From: Sinomicrobium soli
GTDB lineage: Bacteria > Bacteroidota > Bacteroidia > Flavobacteriales > Flavobacteriaceae
Direction of reading: 5' to 3'
NCBI RefSeq assembly: GCF_003285545.1
Contig: NZ_QLNV01000002.1
Span: forward strand, 372,001-436,000
Length of the DNA stretch: 64,000 nucleotides
Below the pieces are notes generated by a model that was given only the letters and a program-made list of their open reading frames with translations, searched no databases and was not told the origin of the DNA. A program made the translations under genes and the position numbers. Shown here in pieces: positions 3,053 to 10,271 of the stretch (its first letter is position 1; each line of letters starts with the position of its first letter).

Positions 3053-3125
3053 TATGAACTGACGGGAAAATTACCTGCATACCGATTTTTAACACCCGTC
3101 CGTGCCCCCGATCGTATATATTCCG

Positions 3126-3133
3126 TACTTTTG
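3126..3133 (+). promoter_or_regulatory. -7 promoter element ahead of the copper locus
   Basis: TACTTTTG at 3126-3133 matches the Bacteroidota -7 consensus TAnnTTTG exactly. No TTG at the ideal distance is evident upstream. Transcription would begin near 3139, that is on or next to the GTG at 3138, so the first gene could be read from a nearly leaderless mRNA. Confidence 0.4.
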
Positions 3134-3137
3134 CCCC

Positions 3138-3506
3138 GTGAAACACTTTTTCCTCATAACAGCGATAGTGATCGGTCTCAAACCGGCTTTTCCCTTTCTG
3201 GAATACGCGGTTAACTACGACTATATATCGCAGGTGCTCTGTATCAACAAAGACAGGCCCGAGGAACAGTGTTTCGGCAAGTGTTACCTGATGAGCGCCG
3301 TGAAAAAGGAAGTGGAAAACGAGGGGAAAGACAAAGCTGCGACCGTCAAGTTCGAACACCAGCTGCTCTTTCACCAGGAAGTCACGGCAAACAACCCCGA
3401 AGTAATCGCTACCGGCGATAAAAAAGAGAGCTTCTGCCAAAAACAGGAACACTACAGCTCACTCTTTATCAAAACAACCTTTAAACCTCCGATCTCATTG
3501 GCTTAG
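3138..3506 (+). CDS. Small Cys-rich membrane-anchored protein of the copper locus
   Basis: The reading frame opens at 3102, but the GTG at 3138 (VKHFFLITAIVIGL) gives a protein of 122 residues that begins with a hydrophobic anchor or signal, so it is preferred. Behind it lies a conserved-looking block LCINKDRPEEQCFGKC with spacing C-x9-C-x3-C, followed by a His/Lys-rich tail and one more Cys (ESFCQKQEH). Thiols spaced this way could bind a soft metal. The gene opens the run of copper-uptake genes on the same strand, 84 nt before the next start, which supports a metal-related role by context only. No family name can be assigned with certainty. Confidence 0.6.
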   Translation: MKHFFLITAIVIGLKPAFPFLEYAVNYDYISQVLCINKDRPEEQCFGKCYLMSAVKKEVENEGKDKAATVKFEHQLLFHQEVTANNPEVIATGDKKESFCQKQEHYSSLFIKTTFKPPISLA

Positions 3507-3590
3507 GCTATCGTAATGACCCCCATTACGGGGTACACATCCGGCAGAATATACCGGGGGACAATTACACATACTCAAAAAGCGTATTCA

Positions 3591-4031
3591 ATGAGATCAT
3601 TTATCCTTTTTTCACTGCTGTGGGCTGCCGTTTTTTCCGTAACGACCTCCTGCAGTGACAAACCTTCTGAAGAAGTCCGTAAATACCAGGAACTATACCG
3701 GGAAGTCATTGCCGTTCACGACGAGGTGATGCCCAAAATGGGAGAACTGAACGCCTTGTCCAGAACCCTGAAACAGGAACAGGACTCCATTTCGGCAACA
3801 CACACCGGTATCCTGGACAGCCTGAAATTATCGCATACCACGATGATGGAATGGATGAAGGACTTCAGTGAAAAATTCCCTTACGGCAAATCTGATCCCC
3901 TGCAAAAGACTCCCGAAGAGCTGCACAGGGATATCGAGCTACTGCAGGCCGAACTCGGGGAAGTCAACCGGATGAAAGACCTTATTGAAGAGAGTATGAC
4001 TAAGGCCAAAAAAGCGATATCGGGGAAATAA
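3591..4031 (+). CDS. Helical lipoprotein of unknown function
   Basis: From the ATG at 3591 the protein has 146 residues. A lipoprotein signal ends at Cys21 (SVTTSC), followed by acidic SDKPSEE. The rest is predicted to be nearly all alpha-helical: EEVRKYQELYREVIAVHDEVMPKMGELNALSRTL and a second long helix with heptad-like spacing to the C-terminus, consistent with a coiled coil. Met and His residues (VHDEVMPKM, MMEWMKDF) are frequent but do not form a known motif. It lies inside the copper locus, between the Cys-rich protein and the YtkA/FixH-like lipoprotein. Upstream in-frame codons from 3516 lack a signal peptide and are not used. Confidence 0.75.
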   Translation: MRSFILFSLLWAAVFSVTTSCSDKPSEEVRKYQELYREVIAVHDEVMPKMGELNALSRTLKQEQDSISATHTGILDSLKLSHTTMMEWMKDFSEKFPYGKSDPLQKTPEELHRDIELLQAELGEVNRMKDLIEESMTKAKKAISGK

Positions 4032-4077
4032 TATTGCTTTCCCCGGAAATAGTCACCCCCATCTAACATTGTCAATA

Positions 4078-4986
4078 ATGCAAAAAACAAGGGTTTTTGT
4101 CATCGCGGCATGCTGTGCCGTCATGTCCTGCACCGTAGACAAAGCGGATTATGAAGCAGAGACAGGTCATTCAGATACAGATCATTACGAATTCAAGGAA
4201 GTCACGGCCCTCCAAAGCGAAAACCACACTATAAGTATAGAAGCTCTTAACGGGCTGCTCTACAAAGGTTATAACGAGATTCGTTTGAAGATTGACGGTG
4301 GCGGTAACACCACTAATATTTCTGAGGTGTCTTTTTTACCGATAATGACTACCGCAGAAGAGGAAGTTTCCTGTCCTCACAGATATCTCTTAGAATACAA
4401 CGACGAAGGGTATTTTTCCGGATATGCGGTGTTTACCCATGAAAGCAGTCAGGGAAACTGGGAGCTATATATCGGTTTTTCTGCTGATGGCGAAGCTTAC
4501 CAAGCGTCGGCGCCGGTTACGGTAGAAGAGCAGCCCAACAAAAACCTGAACATGACCTCGTTCACCGGAAATGACGGTTACCAGTACGTCATTGCACTGG
4601 TGGCTCCCCGGAAACCGGAAGTTGCGGAAAACAACCTTGTTGCCGGAATTTACAAATACGACCAGCCGGCCGGCACTGTCGGGACTCTCCCTGATCCTTC
4701 ACAGTTTTCCTATTCAGAAGCGAGCAACTATACGTTACAGATCGACCCGCGAATGCCTGAACCTTCTATGGGAAATCACTCTTCCCCAAACAACGTCGAC
4801 CTGGTGCAGGAAGACGACAAACTGTATCACGGTGTGGTCAATTACACCATGACCGGGAACTGGACCCTGAATTTCATCATGGTAGACGGAAATGGAAGGA
4901 TCATAAAAGGAACAGAGGTTTCTACGGATTTTACTCCCGGGGTGGAAGGAGCGAAAAGCGAACTTTTTATCGATATTTTGTTCTGA
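4078..4986 (+). CDS. Lipoprotein with two YtkA/FixH-like domains, putative copper binder
   Basis: With the start at 4078 the protein has 302 residues and a lipobox ending at Cys18 (CAVMSC), then TVDKADYEAE, an acidic stretch that may mark surface export. Two similar halves follow. Half one (about 50-150) has FLPIM, then SCPHRY, then FSGYAVFTHESSQGNWELYIGF. Half two (about 170-300) has DPRMPEPSMGNHSSPN, then YHGVVNYTMTGNWTLNFIM. The repeated GNW and the Met/Cys/His cluster before it suggest two Ig-like domains, each presenting soft-metal ligands, as in YtkA/FixH-type proteins. The stop lies 1 nt before the start of the TonB receptor, so translation is probably coupled. Domain assignment is by pattern only. 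Confidence 0.7.
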   Translation: MQKTRVFVIAACCAVMSCTVDKADYEAETGHSDTDHYEFKEVTALQSENHTISIEALNGLLYKGYNEIRLKIDGGGNTTNISEVSFLPIMTTAEEEVSCPHRYLLEYNDEGYFSGYAVFTHESSQGNWELYIGFSADGEAYQASAPVTVEEQPNKNLNMTSFTGNDGYQYVIALVAPRKPEVAENNLVAGIYKYDQPAGTVGTLPDPSQFSYSEASNYTLQIDPRMPEPSMGNHSSPNNVDLVQEDDKLYHGVVNYTMTGNWTLNFIMVDGNGRIIKGTEVSTDFTPGVEGAKSELFIDILF

Positions 4987-4987
4987 G

Positions 4988-6973
4988 ATGATGAAGTTCC
5001 TTACCACTATGGCATTTTTCGGGACGGTAGTTCTGAATGCCCAAGATATCGTGAAACAGCAGGACAGTATAACTGAACTCGAAGAAGTGGAAGTAATCGC
5101 CACTGCCAAAAAGCGGATTGAAACGGATATGAAAATGGCGGTTTCCGTCGATGAATACCTGGCTTCCTCCGCCGATATAAGTTTTGTAAAACGGGGGGCC
5201 TTTGCATGGGAGCCCCTGCTTAACAATATGAGTACGGAACGCACTGCGGTTACTATAGACGGCATGCATATTTTCGGGGCCTGTACCGATAAGATGGACC
5301 CGGTCACTTCGTATGTGGAGAGCAACAACCTTTCCGGGATCGACATAAAATCGGGGCAGGCGGGCAGTTTACACGGCTCTACCATTGCTGGAAGCATTGA
5401 CCTGAAACGGAAAAGCACGCCGTTCGGGCTGGAAAAAAAATGGGGCGGTACCTACCAGAGCGGTTTCGAATTAAACAACGATCAGTGGTTCAACCTCGGA
5501 AACATATCCTATTCCGGCGACGGGTTTACAGCAGACGGAAGTGTTTCCTTCCGCAAGGCGGGCAATTATTCCGACGGTCATAACGACGAAGTACATCATT
5601 CGCAATTCAGCAAATTCAACACCTCATTAGGGATGGCCTATAAAACGGGCCCGCTTTCTTCCATACGGGCAGACGCTATTTTTGACGTGGCCAAAAATGT
5701 CGGGTTTCCCGCATTGCCCATGGACCTGTGGCTTTCCCGGGCAATAATTACATCGGCTTCATACAAACAGCTGTTTGAAGACGGACTAATAAGAGCCTGG
5801 GACACCAAATTTTATTTTAATGCCATAGAACACTATATGGACGACACCACGCGTCCCGAAAACCTGGTCCATATGGATATGCCCGGGTGGAGTACCACCT
5901 ACGGGCTGCTTTCCAGGGCAACCCTGAAGCACGGTCGTTTTGCTTCTGAAATCCAGCTGAATGCCTATGAAAACCTGTCGATCGCAGAGATGCACATGTA
6001 CCCGCAGGACCGGAGCAAAAAGACGATGTTTGCCTATAGCTGGCCGGAGGTCACTACCCGCTTTGGCGGGATCTCGGTAAATAACTCCTGGGATATATCG
6101 GAAAAGAGTCAGTTGAATTTCGGCGGTGCTATCGGACTGCATTTTAACCGCTCCAGGTATGTGGAATTCAACCGGATATTTCACCCGGAAGCCTCCCCCG
6201 AAAAAACAAGGTTCCTGCCCAGCCTGCATGCCGGGTACCTGCTAAACCTCGGGCATTTCCACTTTTCAGCAGGCACAGGATACGGGCACAGGGCGCCTTC
6301 CGTGTCGGAAGGTTACGGATACTATATCTACAACAGTTTTGACCGGTACGATTACATAGGCAATCCCGACCTGAAAAACGAGGTCTCCTACGAGATCAAT
6401 GCCAGTGCAGGGTTTAAGAACAGGAAAATGAGTATGGAGGCCAGGGCAAATTATTTTCATATCGAAAATTATATCGTCGGGGAGATACTGAGCACAGGGA
6501 GCCCCATGAATTATCAGTCTGTAGGGGTGAAAGGCTATACCTCCCTGGACTATGCCACACTTTTCAATATGTCGCTGAACGCCAGTGGTGAAATCCTGCC
6601 GAATTTACACGGCGAAGGTACGCTCACCTACGCAAGGGGGACAGATCACAAAAACAAGAACCTCCCCTTTATCCGTCCGTTGAGCTACCGGGCCTCCCTT
6701 CACTTTACGCATCGTCACTTCGGGTTCCGGACATCGTTCAACGGCGATGCCATACAAAAAGATTACAGCCCGGAATACGGGGAAGACCAGACTCCCGCCT
6801 ATGCGATCTGGAATATTTCCGCCGATTACACCTTTATGATCGGAAACCACGTCACCGTCTTACAGCTCGGCGCGGAGAATGTATTTGACACCTATTACAG
6901 CACCTATGCCGACTGGGGCAATATCCCCAGAATGGGCCGGAATATTTTTACGTCCCTGAAATTCAATTTTTAA
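4988..6973 (+). CDS. TonB-dependent receptor, OprC-like copper importer
   Basis: The 661-residue protein has a signal peptide (cleavage after NAQ, about residue 19), a plug domain at about 30-150 and a beta-barrel ending in Phe (SLKFNF). It lacks the N-terminal carboxypeptidase-like domain of SusC proteins and is short, like OprC/NosA. Two motifs support copper: IDGMHIFGACTDKMDP puts Cys99 and Met103 four residues apart, and EHYMDD puts His282 and Met284 two apart, the same spacings as the CxxxM and HxM ligands of the OprC copper site. Neighbours encode MbnP and MbnH homologues. Inferred role: TonB-driven uptake of copper ions or a copper complex across the outer membrane. Siderophore-like copper ligands remain an alternative substrate. 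Confidence 0.88.
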   Translation: MMKFLTTMAFFGTVVLNAQDIVKQQDSITELEEVEVIATAKKRIETDMKMAVSVDEYLASSADISFVKRGAFAWEPLLNNMSTERTAVTIDGMHIFGACTDKMDPVTSYVESNNLSGIDIKSGQAGSLHGSTIAGSIDLKRKSTPFGLEKKWGGTYQSGFELNNDQWFNLGNISYSGDGFTADGSVSFRKAGNYSDGHNDEVHHSQFSKFNTSLGMAYKTGPLSSIRADAIFDVAKNVGFPALPMDLWLSRAIITSASYKQLFEDGLIRAWDTKFYFNAIEHYMDDTTRPENLVHMDMPGWSTTYGLLSRATLKHGRFASEIQLNAYENLSIAEMHMYPQDRSKKTMFAYSWPEVTTRFGGISVNNSWDISEKSQLNFGGAIGLHFNRSRYVEFNRIFHPEASPEKTRFLPSLHAGYLLNLGHFHFSAGTGYGHRAPSVSEGYGYYIYNSFDRYDYIGNPDLKNEVSYEINASAGFKNRKMSMEARANYFHIENYIVGEILSTGSPMNYQSVGVKGYTSLDYATLFNMSLNASGEILPNLHGEGTLTYARGTDHKNKNLPFIRPLSYRASLHFTHRHFGFRTSFNGDAIQKDYSPEYGEDQTPAYAIWNISADYTFMIGNHVTVLQLGAENVFDTYYSTYADWGNIPRMGRNIFTSLKFNF

Positions 6974-7009
6974 GAAAACAGATATAATTAATAACATAAA
7001 TCAAAACAA

Positions 7010-7885
7010 ATGAAACATCTGAAAAAGTACGTTCTGCTATCAACCCTCACATTGGCGCTGATCTCCTGTAGTTCAGACGATGACCATCCCGTTGCCAACA
7101 ACATGACCCTTCATTTCCACAACACCTTCAAGGATACCGGTATTGTTCTCGGTGACGCCGCTTCTCCCGATGCTACGGTAAACACATCGGCAGCCGGACA
7201 GGTCCATCACTTTTCCGAACTGAAATACGTGATCAGCAATATCCGTCTCATACCGCAGGACGGCAGTGAATTTCCCTATAACGTAAACGACCTGGACAGG
7301 GGGGCGACGGTTATCGACCAGTCAAAACCGGAAAGCCTGGACTACATCCTGAACAACATCCCGTCGGGAGAATACCGGCAGGTAAAATTCGGCCTGGGGG
7401 TCAGGCAGGAACTGAACACCCTGGACGAGGTGAGATTTCCGGAATTCTACGCTACGGCAGGGGCCAACGACACGGAAATGATGTGGGAATGGGGAACCGG
7501 TTACCGCTTTGTGAAACTGGAAGGTTTTTACGATACCGATCACAAGGAAATGTCTGTCCATACCGGAAGCACCGTAGAAGGGACCAACGGTGACGAAGAC
7601 ACCTATACACAAGGGGTGGATGCCTACCGGGATATTACCTTAGACCTCCCTGTCAACGCCGCAGTAGGAAAAAATGCCCCCGTAATAACCATAAAGGCAG
7701 ACTTTGACAAGCTGCTGAGCGGAAAGACCAACACCATTACCCTGACCACAGGAACCTCGATGGGAGATAATGCCACTCCCAATATTCACACCGCCGACCA
7801 GATGGTGAAATTCGTGGACAACCTGGGCGGGAACGGTTCGGGCGACCTTACCGGGATGTTCGCTGTAGAAGAGGTAGAAAACTGA
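7010..7885 (+). CDS. MbnP-family copper-binding lipoprotein
   Basis: The 291-residue protein has a lipobox ending at Cys20 (LALISC) followed by SSDDDH, an acidic motif of the kind that directs lipoproteins to the cell surface in this phylum. The mature protein shows MbnP features: an opening beta strand MTLHFHNTF, AAGQVHHFSELKYVISNIRLI, and the block MMWEWGTGYRFVKLEG with Trp159 and Trp161. In characterised MbnP proteins a Trp is oxidised to kynurenine by the partner peroxidase and helps bind copper. It sits 36 nt after the receptor and before the MbnH-like gene. Which Trp is modified here cannot be read from sequence. Confidence 0.88.
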   Translation: MKHLKKYVLLSTLTLALISCSSDDDHPVANNMTLHFHNTFKDTGIVLGDAASPDATVNTSAAGQVHHFSELKYVISNIRLIPQDGSEFPYNVNDLDRGATVIDQSKPESLDYILNNIPSGEYRQVKFGLGVRQELNTLDEVRFPEFYATAGANDTEMMWEWGTGYRFVKLEGFYDTDHKEMSVHTGSTVEGTNGDEDTYTQGVDAYRDITLDLPVNAAVGKNAPVITIKADFDKLLSGKTNTITLTTGTSMGDNATPNIHTADQMVKFVDNLGGNGSGDLTGMFAVEEVEN

Positions 7886-7893
7886 TTCGTTAT

Positions 7894-7929
7894 AAGAGCT
7901 GGCCGGGAAACAACCTTCGGTCAGCTCTT
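7894..7929 (+). other. Intercistronic hairpin between the MbnP and MbnH genes
   Basis: AAGAGCTGGCCG (7894-7905) pairs with CGGTCAGCTCTT (7918-7929), leaving one mismatch and a 12-nt loop. An A-rich rather than U-rich tail follows, so it looks more like an RNA-stability or processing stem than a full terminator. It could set the ratio of lipoprotein to peroxidase. Confidence 0.5.
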
Positions 7930-7983
7930 AAAATAAAATACGGAACCCGTTCTGGGTTATCTCAACGTCTCACTGCAAAAGGC

Positions 7984-9006
7984 ATGAAAAAAATAGCCGG
8001 AATTTTCGCTGTCATACTGCTGCTGTTGTCCTGTAATCCGGACCACACGGAAGACTTCTTTTTTTATGACAACCCGGAACTTCCGCTGCATATTCCGGAC
8101 GGCTTTCCGGAGCTCAACCCCTCGGTAAGTATCAATCCCCCTACCAGGTACGGGGTGGAACTGGGTGAAAAACTGTTTCACGAAAAGAAATTCAGCAGCA
8201 ACAATACCATTTCCTGTGCCGGTTGCCATCAACAGTCCCATGCTTTTGCCGACAATCACGCTCAGGCCGTGGGAATTCACGACAGGGTCGGGCTCCGGAA
8301 TACGCCGCCGGTCCAGAATATGGCCTTTATGAAATTCTATAACTGGGACGGGAACATCCTTCAACTGGAAAAACAACCGCTGGTTCCCGTAATAACACAT
8401 GAGGAAATGGACTCCTCCATCCTCGAGGTCATCGGCAAGATCAGTGGCGACCCCGTATACAGGGAGCTGTTCCGCAAGGCATTCGGCGATGAAGAGATCA
8501 CCCCCGACAGGGTCTACCGGAGTATTGCACAGTATGAATACACCCTGGTATCGGCCAACAGTAAATACGACAAGGTAATGCGGGACGAAGGAGAAACCTT
8601 TACGGAAAGTGAAGCGAGGGGATATCAAACCTTCAGGCAGAAATGCGCCGACTGCCACAGTACGGAACTGTTTACCGATCAGAGTTTCAGGAATATCGGT
8701 TTCCCGGTAAACCCCGGCCCCGATGAAGCCGGGCGCGGCAGGGTAACGGGAATCCCGGAAGACTATATGAGGTTCAGGGTCCCTTCTTTAAGAAATGTGG
8801 AATACACCGCTCCTTACGGAAGTTTCGGCCAGTTTCCCACCCTGAAGGCCGTACTGGATTATTTTGACAACGGCGTTCCGGATGCCGCCAATCTCGACCC
8901 GGTGTTTAAAGCAAACGGGAACAGGATACCGCTTACCGAAGGAGAAAAAGACGACCTTATCTCATTTATGAAAACGCTGAGCGACCAGGCATTTACGGGA
9001 CGATGA
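7984..9006 (+). CDS. MbnH-like di-haem cytochrome c peroxidase (MauG superfamily)
   Basis: The 340-residue protein has a lipoprotein signal ending at Cys17 (LLLLSC). Two haem c attachment sites are present: CAGCH at 78-82 and CADCH at 221-225. The architecture matches bacterial di-haem peroxidases and the MauG/MbnH group: LGEKLFHEKKFS before the first haem, GLRNTPPVQNMAF between, and FRVPSLRNVEYTAPYGSFGQF after the second. Placed directly after an MbnP gene, it most likely oxidises Trp residues of MbnP with peroxide-derived equivalents instead of serving only for peroxide removal. It is the last gene of the copper locus; no strong terminator is seen. Confidence 0.9.
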   Translation: MKKIAGIFAVILLLLSCNPDHTEDFFFYDNPELPLHIPDGFPELNPSVSINPPTRYGVELGEKLFHEKKFSSNNTISCAGCHQQSHAFADNHAQAVGIHDRVGLRNTPPVQNMAFMKFYNWDGNILQLEKQPLVPVITHEEMDSSILEVIGKISGDPVYRELFRKAFGDEEITPDRVYRSIAQYEYTLVSANSKYDKVMRDEGETFTESEARGYQTFRQKCADCHSTELFTDQSFRNIGFPVNPGPDEAGRGRVTGIPEDYMRFRVPSLRNVEYTAPYGSFGQFPTLKAVLDYFDNGVPDAANLDPVFKANGNRIPLTEGEKDDLISFMKTLSDQAFTGR

Positions 9007-9042
9007 TCGCAGACATCAAAATCAGGGATATTTGCAGGGTGC

Positions 9043-9125
9043 TGTTTGTTCGGTTACAGGTTGCTGGTCTGAAATATTCAGGGCGTTGACAATGCTCTTC
9101 GAGTTTGCAACTTTGCAGCCCATAA
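9043..9125. repeat. Left direct repeat flanking the toxin-antitoxin pair
   Basis: The segment 9043-9073 matches 10174-10204 at 29 of 31 positions. The segments 9089-9102 and 9104-9125 are repeated again near 10233-10271. The two copies, in the same orientation, bracket the toxin-antitoxin genes. The rest of the 410-nt gap between the peroxidase and the antitoxin (9126-9416) shows no convincing gene; a 77-codon frame overlapping this repeat is not supported. Confidence 0.7.
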
Positions 9126-9416
9126 ACTTCTTGTACGAACAAAAAACTAAACGCCTCTCAGAGAGAAGCTGGATATATCTGCTTTCTACCAACAGGAGCG
9201 GGTTTATAAATTATTATTTGAACAGAGAGCATTTGTTTTTTATTTTTGTATGTACCGGTACCTGAAAGCCCATTTAAATTGTTCAGAGACAAACGCTCAG
9301 AACTAAAAAAAACATCAGAATAATCACAAAGAAGGGAGATATTCCTGTATGCAGAAGGAGGTAAAACCAGTATCTTTCATCAAAAAACAACTGTCTAATC
9401 AGTTAAAACAAATACA

Positions 9417-9650
9417 ATGAACATACAAGACGAAAAAGCGATCATCATAGAGCAATTCAGGCAGGTAAACGATATAAACCTGATCCATGCCATTAAAAGC
9501 ATGCTCGACTATGCAATGAAAAAAGAACAGGAAATCCTTGAGGTTCCTGAAGCCCACCGGCAACTGGTAATGGAACGTTTTGAAAAGGTACGTAAAAATC
9601 CTGACCGTCTTTTGGATTGGGATGAAGCTAAAAAAAGATTAAAGACCTGA
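9417..9650 (+). CDS. Antitoxin of a RelE/ParE-type module (addiction module component)
   Basis: The 77-residue protein is mostly helical and ends in LLDWDEAKKRLK, the signature tail of the small 'addiction module component' antitoxin family. Proteins of this group bind and neutralise a RelE/ParE toxin and repress their own promoter. The toxin gene follows in the same direction but after 129 nt, an unusually wide gap for such a pair. No other function is suggested. Confidence 0.82.
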   Translation: MNIQDEKAIIIEQFRQVNDINLIHAIKSMLDYAMKKEQEILEVPEAHRQLVMERFEKVRKNPDRLLDWDEAKKRLKT

Positions 9651-9779
9651 ACAAACAAATGTGATTGTTTCCGGATACGGGTTATTCATATAAAATGTAA
9701 TGAAAATAAGCTCAACATGAACTCCTGAACATGCATGACTTTTTTGCAGATTTTTACAGGCAAAAAGTTTTAAAAACAG

Positions 9780-10091
9780 ATGAAAAAATTCAAAGTAAAA
9801 ATTGAACCTGAAGCTCTTGCTGATATTCAAGAAATTACCGACTGGTATAATGAACAACAGAAAAAACTTGGAGAAAGGTTTCAGAAAACAGCTATTAAAC
9901 ACATAAATTCACTCAGCAGAAACCCACAGATCTACGCCATTCGCTACAAAGATATCCGCTGTGTTATTATCAAGAAATTCCCCTATATGGCGCATTTCTA
10001 TATCGACAACAAGAACAACATAGTTGAAGTTCTCGCTGTGATAAGCACTGACCGAAACCCTAAGATCTGGCATGAAAAAACAAATACATAA
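9780..10091 (+). CDS. RelE/ParE-family toxin
   Basis: The 103-residue protein fits the RelE/ParE fold: an N-terminal strand FKVKIEPEALADI, a long helix EITDWYNEQQKKLGERF, then strands IRCVIIKKFPYMAHFYID and VEVLAVISTDRNPKIW. This subgroup acts either as an mRNA interferase or on gyrase; the sequence alone does not decide which. An A-rich stretch precedes the ATG at 9780. It forms a pair with the antitoxin at 9417. Confidence 0.87.
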   Translation: MKKFKVKIEPEALADIQEITDWYNEQQKKLGERFQKTAIKHINSLSRNPQIYAIRYKDIRCVIIKKFPYMAHFYIDNKNNIVEVLAVISTDRNPKIWHEKTNT

Positions 10092-10173
10092 TCAGCAATT
10101 TCCGGCCGCACAACTCCAAAACTAAGAACTACGAACTAACAACTGGGTCAAAGACATTCGCAGAGCTAAGCGT

Positions 10174-10271
10174 TGTTTGTTCGATTACAGGCTGCTGGTC
10201 TGAATTCTGAACTCCAAACTAACAACTCCGGAACAATGCTCTTCGAAGATTTGTAACTTCGAAGCACATAA
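10174..10271. repeat. Right direct repeat flanking the toxin-antitoxin pair
   Basis: This is the second copy of the repeat at 9043-9125, in the same orientation and about 1.13 kb away. It is longer because of an inserted AT-rich stretch of the aagaactacgaactaac type, which also occurs just upstream (10110-10140) and near 63485-63520. The arrangement resembles a cassette bounded by repeats, but no recombinase or transposase is present. Confidence 0.65.

Follow-up and report, generated by a model that had tools for sequence, protein, structure and literature searches.

A widespread Bacteroidota operon, probably for outer-membrane copper import, is headed by a candidate copper-sensing leader peptide

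Introduction

How might a member of the Bacteroidota bring copper across its outer membrane, and how might the genes for this be switched? The question is raised by six open frames, here termed A to F, which lie on the forward strand between positions 3102 and 9006 of a 64,000-nucleotide stretch of the Sinomicrobium soli genome (contig NZ_QLNV01000002.1, positions 372,001 to 436,000; hereafter the window). A preliminary description of this DNA had read the six frames, whose number, shared strand and extent we confirm, as a copper-acquisition locus in which an OprC-like TonB-dependent receptor, an MbnP/MbnH pair, two lipoproteins and a Cys-rich small protein would operate without methanobactin. 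Our best explanation, to which sequence comparison leads us to assign a probability of about two in three, is that the window carries a Bacteroidota copper-import operon in which A would act in cis as a leader peptide through which copper turns the operon off. The operon is real and widespread; its kind is known, and what is new about this variant lies in the leader, the lipoprotein and the heme enzyme.

MbnP and MbnH have been described beside receptors outside methanobactin loci (PMC3621798), and proteobacterial operons that combine MbnPH-like and OprC-type genes behind a leader with a Cys motif and a RAPP end have been reported (PMC9426467); the methanobactin-independent use of the pair that had been proposed for this locus is supported by our analysis and is not new. 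An open-access literature search found no paper on this Bacteroidota operon or on its variant of F. The studied outer-membrane copper importers in the literature cited here are from Proteobacteria, and the present locus would add an import operon from Bacteroidota whose switch can be tested. It also points to copper sensing by a nascent chain in a phylum reported to lack RAPP-type copper leaders (PMC12992588), and its F proteins form a natural collection of MauG-like enzymes that lack the axial Tyr, on which the purpose of that ligand could be tested directly.

Results and discussion

Five genes form the conserved unit

Likely starts read from the sequence place A at 3138-3506 (GTG), B at 3591-4031 and C at 4078-4986 (both ATG), D at 4988-6973, E at 7010-7885 and F at 7984-9006, all on the forward strand, with gaps calculated from these coordinates of 84, 46, 1, 36 and 98 nt between successive genes. 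Searches of Pfam and NCBIfam at an E-value of 0.01 gave no matches for A, B or C. The host genome (4.61 Mb, 99.7% complete) holds a single MbnP, a single A and a single D-type receptor, and the match of two further receptors to D is limited to the barrel. MbnB (TIGR04159) was not found in this genome, MbnA and MbnC not having been searched for, and a methanobactin operon was rejected on the MbnB search alone; to that extent, the earlier remark that no methanobactin genes are visible holds genome-wide.

Within the family, 111 matches to PF20243, the Pfam family of E, were listed, of which 102 fall within the 100 fetched regions or the window itself and 9 belong to regions that were not fetched. 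PF20243 occurs in 99 of 199 genomes of the family and in 25 of 99 genomes of a phylum sample. E and F were both present in all 101 sequences of this set (the 100 fetched loci and the window), with about 4 kb between them in one locus (L035). In the type I setting, which comprises nine loci with C and D, the window included, the order is A-C-D-E-F. In type II, A, at times as A-B-A, precedes E-F and a protein, some 330 residues long, that has no family match. In type III, E-F is flanked by choice-of-anchor-B and propeller proteins and by an iron-sulfur operon of the SUF kind; each of these names was taken from a single representative.

An alignment of D was also run against named genomes, and the best 80 of 582 relatives, used in all counts of named loci given here, fell into two groups. 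Of these 80 loci, 52 carry a receptor at least 58% identical to D, and these retain E-F in 51 cases and A-C-D in 50; the locus without E-F is from Bergeyella cardium (L270), and the two without the full A-C-D reach a contig end nearby. The genera represented include Flavobacterium, Chryseobacterium, Winogradskyella, Maribacter, Myroides, Sphingobacterium and others. The remaining 28 loci, with receptors of 43-47% identity, keep C and D and mostly A, and none has E-F. E-F goes together with one clade of receptor D. As the order A-C-D-E-F recurs and B is absent from all 80 named loci, the conserved unit consists of five genes. A search of relatives for conserved order of the six genes had been proposed as a check on the preliminary description; that order holds for A, C, D, E and F and fails for B. 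Across the phylum, the A family is present in 105 of 296 Bacteroidota genomes, and A accompanies MbnP in 19 of 24 genomes, versus 15 of 74 genomes without MbnP (own genome left out, relatedness not corrected).

B is an accessory gene outside this unit. It encodes a 146-aa lipoprotein whose homologues, found in 8 loci including the window (loci chosen for MbnP or A), have the His/Met motifs HDxxM and MMxWM in common, and it may have a role with copper. B and C were sought in loci preselected for MbnP, A or D, which makes their copper setting partly a matter of construction. A DUF4159 gene at 2411 was rejected as a member of the unit; it occurs in 2 of 101 sequences, and the promoter box described below lies 3' of it.

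An OprC-like receptor suggests copper import

D is a TonB-dependent receptor for which OprC was the sole PDB match at an E-value of 1e-5 or better in a single-sequence search. A profile of 28 D sequences likewise placed OprC first (E 5.6e-80), followed by a structure that matched in the barrel only (2.7e-36). OprC binds copper through Cys143, Met147, His323 and Met325 (PMC8610252). In our alignment, ACxxxMD of the D plug falls on CPNRM of OprC and HxMD of the barrel on DHIMD, and the corresponding ligands C99 and M103 (C99xxxM103) and H282 and M284 (H282xM284) are invariant in 28 of 28 sequences. A looser pattern test recovered both CxxxM and HxM in all 80 receptors of the named loci, HxM being accepted anywhere between residues 230 and 420; the residue before its His varies, and 27 receptors differ from a narrower HxM pattern. 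D resembles OprC/NosA of Pseudomonas in its near full-length profile match and in the register of the four copper ligands, but it lies far below the curated cut-off of TIGR01778 (76.5 versus 472.45 bits), hence the term OprC-like, and belongs to another operon. The receptor assignment of the preliminary description is upheld by this profile match and by the invariant CxxxM and HxM. An OprC-like receptor with CxxxM-HxM has been noted earlier in the flavobacterium Bizionia (PMC11213822).

The lipoprotein C carries a predicted copper-binding domain at its C-terminus (DPRMPEPSMGNHSSPNN...YTMTGNW), which matched PDB entry 9ll2, the Helicobacter pylori copper resistance protein CrdA, with a profile E-value of 5.9e-7. 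An AlphaFold2 (AF2) model of C with a mean predicted local distance difference test (pLDDT) score of 85.4 retrieved apo and silver-bound CrdA in Foldseek at E 9e-5 and 7e-4 with template modelling (TM) scores by target of 0.73 and 0.71, the first values being those of 9ll2. Against this fold match, Foldseek ranked an unrelated complex first (E 6.6e-6, TM 0.21), and antibody or immunoglobulin-like folds of low TM made up most of the 50 rows shown. Invariant residues of C include M226, H234 and M258. C resembles CrdA in this domain, by sequence profile and by fold, and differs from it in being longer and a lipoprotein; its N-terminal part gave no convincing match.

Taken together, the locus is probably an outer-membrane copper import operon, and the OprC-like site lends support to the import that had been proposed for it. 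D would bring ionic copper across the outer membrane using TonB energy, and C and B would catch copper or pass it on, at the surface or in the periplasm. Of the three proteins that had been put forward as new parts, C carries a CrdA-like domain, B is accessory, and A is best read as a leader peptide.

A looks like a copper-sensing leader peptide of the CutF/CruR kind

Gene A encodes a 122-aa protein with an N-terminal hydrophobic helix, a three-Cys motif (CINKDRPEEQCFGKC, C35-C49, codons at 3240-3284) and a Pro-Pro (P117-P118, codons at 3486-3491) four residues ahead of the stop. In an alignment of 35 copies, the invariant residues are P16, C35, N37, C45, G47, C49, L51, P117 and P118. The tallies of 206 A copies, of 61 type I and 110 other F sequences and of the promoter box count distinct sequences; some loci occur in more than one set (for example L267/L169, L268/L048 and L271/L041), and removing these repeats left the picture unchanged. 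The terminal Pro-Pro is present in 204 of 206 copies from three locus sets, 61-72 residues past the Cys motif (mean 66.7), and the two copies that lack it are short frames (L248 and L264). Among 113 copies, 93 have His, Arg or Lys immediately ahead of Pro-Pro, and in 104 the chain continues for 2-4 residues after it; in comparison frames of 100-250 aa from the first locus set, Pro-Pro was found within the last 16 residues in 14 of 529. The linker between Cys motif and Pro-Pro has a mean identity of 23% (400 sampled pairs from the 113 copies) versus 19% when shuffled, and a length of 65 ± 2.2. An AF2 model of A has a mean pLDDT of 65 and leaves the linker without predicted structure; this model is of low confidence and is used solely to state that no fold is predicted.

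The sequence TAnnTTTG, which we take to be the Bacteroidota -7 box, occurs at 3126-3133 (TACTTTTG) and ends 4 nt 5' of the GTG of A, so that the mRNA would begin nearly at the start codon. This box was found at the A start in 115 of 206 copies, compared with 1 of 91 starts of C, 2 of 107 of D, 2 of 170 of E and 2 of 174 of F. The reversed string was present at 8 of 206 A copies, and a shuffled control gave about 4 sites versus 69 in three bins. The three-Cys motif, the unconserved linker of near-fixed length, the terminal Pro-Pro and the promoter box together give A the look of a leader peptide that acts in cis and senses copper.

The ribosome tunnel and the translocon together span about 65 residues. 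We propose that transcription of the operon would begin at the promoter directly next to the GTG of A, and that, with the ribosome at Pro-Pro, the Cys motif some 67 residues ahead would just reach the periplasm. At low copper, the ribosome would stall at Pro-Pro and the genes further along would be expressed, while copper on the Cys motif would relieve the pause and turn the operon off, as in CruR and with a sign opposite to that of CutF.

In Bordetella, CruR stands first in a receptor operon that copper represses; copper at its CXXC motif lifts a pause at RAPP and Rho terminates transcription (PMC9426467), and arrest of CruR has been demonstrated in vitro (PMC12992588). CutF requires export, its Cys motif and its Pro-rich end, and the same source lists 5,334 CutF-like proteins with Pro-Pro at most 15 residues from the end, many of them in Bacteroidota and frequently neighboured by receptors (PMC9973294). 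A shares with CutF-like proteins (PMC9973294) and with CruR/DUF2946 (PMC9426467) a small size, an N-terminal export signal, a Cys motif, a late Pro-Pro and a place before copper genes. The traits that define such leaders, namely a Cys motif, Pro-Pro near the C-terminus and the first place ahead of copper genes, are all found in A, which very likely falls among the published CutF-like proteins, so that its kind is already known. New here are its connection with this operon, its fixed spacing, the geometry of its promoter and the inner copies discussed below. A differs in its Cys motif, CxNKDKPxLxCxGKC, and in having mostly F-[HRK]-P-P instead of RAPP. It is not a CruR as defined by Pfam DUF2946 and a RAPP end, having no Pfam match and ending in FKPP in the window; RAPP/RGPP copper leaders are reported missing from Bacteroidota (PMC12992588). 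The spacing of about 67 residues compares with 45 in CruR, which works without its signal peptide (PMC9426467, PMC9973294), and would suit a Cys motif already past the translocon.

A conserved hairpin or attenuator 3' of A was considered and dropped; the mean z-score there looked low when taken alone (-1.34, 113 copies), and other gaps of the same loci scored lower. Given that there is no hairpin excess after A and that Bacteroidota mRNAs lack Shine-Dalgarno sequences (PMC6847099), the unmasking of a ribosome site as in CutF appears less likely than control of read-through.

The E-F pair has a variant heme site

E matched PF20243 with 122.4 bits, well above the gathering cut-off of 27, and stayed under the curated cut-off of TIGR04052 (58.6 versus 140 bits). 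A single-sequence PDB search with E returned a chance match only, and a profile reached MbnP (7l6g) at E 0.38, behind two unrelated chains, with WxW and HxGS in register. As these PDB searches are weak, the MbnP assignment of E rests on Pfam. The WxW motif of this lipoprotein (W159/W161, 7484-7492; H184 is a further marked residue) is present in 62 of the 102 MbnP proteins from the family set, all 40 without it being in the type III setting, and in every one of the 51 named loci that carry the pair.

F has two CxxCH motifs, and NCBIfam ranks the MbnH model TIGR04039 first for it, with 200 bits versus 171 for MauG, as a family match below the TIGR04039 cut-off of 362.85. With these qualifications, the MbnP/MbnH-family pair of the preliminary description stands. 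Both CxxCH motifs are present in 101 of 103 F frames; the remaining two are the halves of one split gene, at L083:8755-9838, where F is divided into two overlapping frames with one CxxCH each. Trp at position 121, conserved in 60 of 61 type I F sequences, would be the inter-heme Trp.

Heme sites were compared after proteins shorter than 200 aa were left out, and one sequence from the other settings is gapped at the heme site, which leaves 110 readable. The position of MauG Tyr294 is Phe in 41, Leu in 17 and Met in 3 of the 61 type I F sequences, while it is Tyr in 110 of 110 readable others. The MHDGR loop, present in the same 110 of 110, is replaced by GS[F/L]GQ in 61 of 61 type I sequences, and the window carries Phe294 and GSFGQ at 279-283. 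All 61 have a Tyr one residue earlier (Tyr293), and Met262, at a guess a heme ligand, is present in 59 of 61 versus 3 of 111 others. Tyr294 is described as conserved in all MauGs, with Met or His at this position in peroxidases (PMC7567364), and the His of a PY-x-H-N-G signature is called essential (PMC4496055). Like MbnP/MbnH (TIGR04052/TIGR04039; 7l6g/6e1c), E-F is a neighbouring pair with PF20243, WxW and two heme motifs; unlike them, it lies below both NCBIfam cut-offs and its clade has lost the axial Tyr and the PYMHDGR loop.

Work on methanotroph MbnH-type enzymes reportedly found that a Trp of MbnP is converted to kynurenine, and the preliminary description had carried this step over to the present pair. 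Because type I F has lost the axial Tyr of MauG-type enzymes and the MHDGR loop, kynurenine formation cannot be assumed here and the step is uncertain. F is MbnH-like by family and should not be classed among MauG-type enzymes of proven chemistry. We suggest that F would oxidise or activate E and that E would hold copper. An alternative, unlikely in our estimate though the most probable of those considered, is that F acts as an ordinary cytochrome c peroxidase and clears peroxide, with E binding copper without Trp oxidation. The loss of the axial Tyr and of the PYMHDG His in 61 of 61 type I sequences is consistent with this, as is the single-sequence PDB ranking of the window F, in which the classical peroxidase 1iqc came first (E 3.8e-39) and MbnH (6e1c) fourth (E 8.5e-34). 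On the other side stand the NCBIfam ranking, a profile of 18 F proteins that finds 6e1c first (a rank that leans on 12 of them from other settings), the presence of E with F in 101 of 101 sequences and the full retention of WxW in named loci with the pair. Moreover, Met, the usual peroxidase ligand, occupies the Tyr294 position in just 3 of 61.

Weighing the leader and import readings

A second, improbable alternative holds that A is an ordinary membrane-anchored envelope copper chaperone, whose Cys motif passes copper on and whose Pro-Pro serves as a binding tail. The hydrophobic N-terminal helix and the Cys motif would suit such a role, as would the neighbours of A. In a phylum set of 59 regions picked from A-family matches (a 44-base stretch, L215, left out), a receptor lies downstream in 29, MbnP/MbnH in 15 and both in 6, that is, one or the other or both in 50 of 59, a count that speaks equally for the leader and import reading. 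Against a chaperone stand the linker, which makes up over half of A and, though neither conserved nor predicted to be structured, is fixed in length, and the promoter box, which abuts the start codon. The box is also distributed by position, being present in 114 of 179 leading copies and in 1 of 27 copies behind B, C, D or E; these extra copies sit within operons, as expected of a cis element.

Several observations weigh against A as a leader of a copper-import operon. The exact box is missing from 65 of 179 leading copies, and 9 of the 59 phylum-set loci have neither a receptor nor MbnP/MbnH. Other neighbours of A include SCO1, PCuAC, PepSY_TM, YHS, COX1, SOD and DUF2911 (one representative each), of which the Fe/Mn superoxide dismutase (SOD) is no copper protein. 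The residues ahead of Pro-Pro are mostly Phe or Leu and then His, Arg or Lys rather than RAPP, and RNA structure 3' of A is not in excess (mean z -1.13 in 61 gaps versus -1.95 in 129 other same-strand gaps). The tunnel-plus-translocon length in the spacing argument is an approximate figure, and the absence of the axial Tyr from F makes the chemistry of E-F uncertain.

The import reading has rivals of its own. In place of ionic copper, D might import copper bound to a chelator from another producer, a stolen chalkophore, for which there is a precedent in CrtA, another copper receptor, which imports chelated copper; CrtA is described as having no conserved Cys or Met (PMC12914433), whereas D retains the four OprC ligands, and we consider chelate uptake by D quite improbable. 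Least probable of all is that the locus is copper-induced and protects by capture and sequestration instead of acquiring copper. The likeness of C to the copper-resistance determinant CrdA and the HYC_CC_PP gene described below speak for this reading. Against it, import is what TonB-dependent receptors do, copper represses OprC and BfrG/CrtA (PMC8610252, PMC9426467), and none of the six genes was recognised as an efflux gene.

Beyond the copper-import operon with its candidate leader, a broader joint reading is tentative, short of even odds: the A proteins may be phylum-wide periplasmic copper "rulers", in which the distance from Cys motif to Pro-Pro is set by tunnel and translocon and lets the ribosome read copper outside, while one clade of MbnH may have rewired its electron-transfer heme, at a ligand position without Tyr or His and rarely with Met, for a different maturation of MbnP.

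Related and neighbouring genes

A small Cys protein of the same genome, HYC_CC_PP (NF047658; L302:1498-1923, C11:228997-229401), shares with A a late Pro-Pro and differs in its other motifs, A having no match to NF047658. It lies directly 5' of a frame that looks like a resistance-nodulation-division (RND) pump, and this Cys/Pro-Pro protein is perhaps an efflux counterpart of A; its place before such a frame is the point in favour of a protective role.

In many type II loci, the protein of about 330 residues 3' of E-F (c10/d3; L080:5882-6865, L165:3997-4956 and relatives) has an N-terminal CDxCGC stretch and no Pfam match. Type III loci such as L065 and L106, in which the pair lies between T9SS choice-of-anchor-B proteins and the SUF operon, represent another, unexplained use of the pair. 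In L033 and L036-L038, MbnP/MbnH is adjoined by a cluster c22 protein, which in L033 is a YHYH-domain T9SS protein.

In the window itself, two small frames of 77 and 103 aa lie 3' of F at 9418-10091, the latter with a weak RelE/StbE match (E 0.0067, below cut-off). They are perhaps a toxin-antitoxin pair, and similar short stretches near 9030-9140 and 10160-10270 seem, by eye, to flank them.

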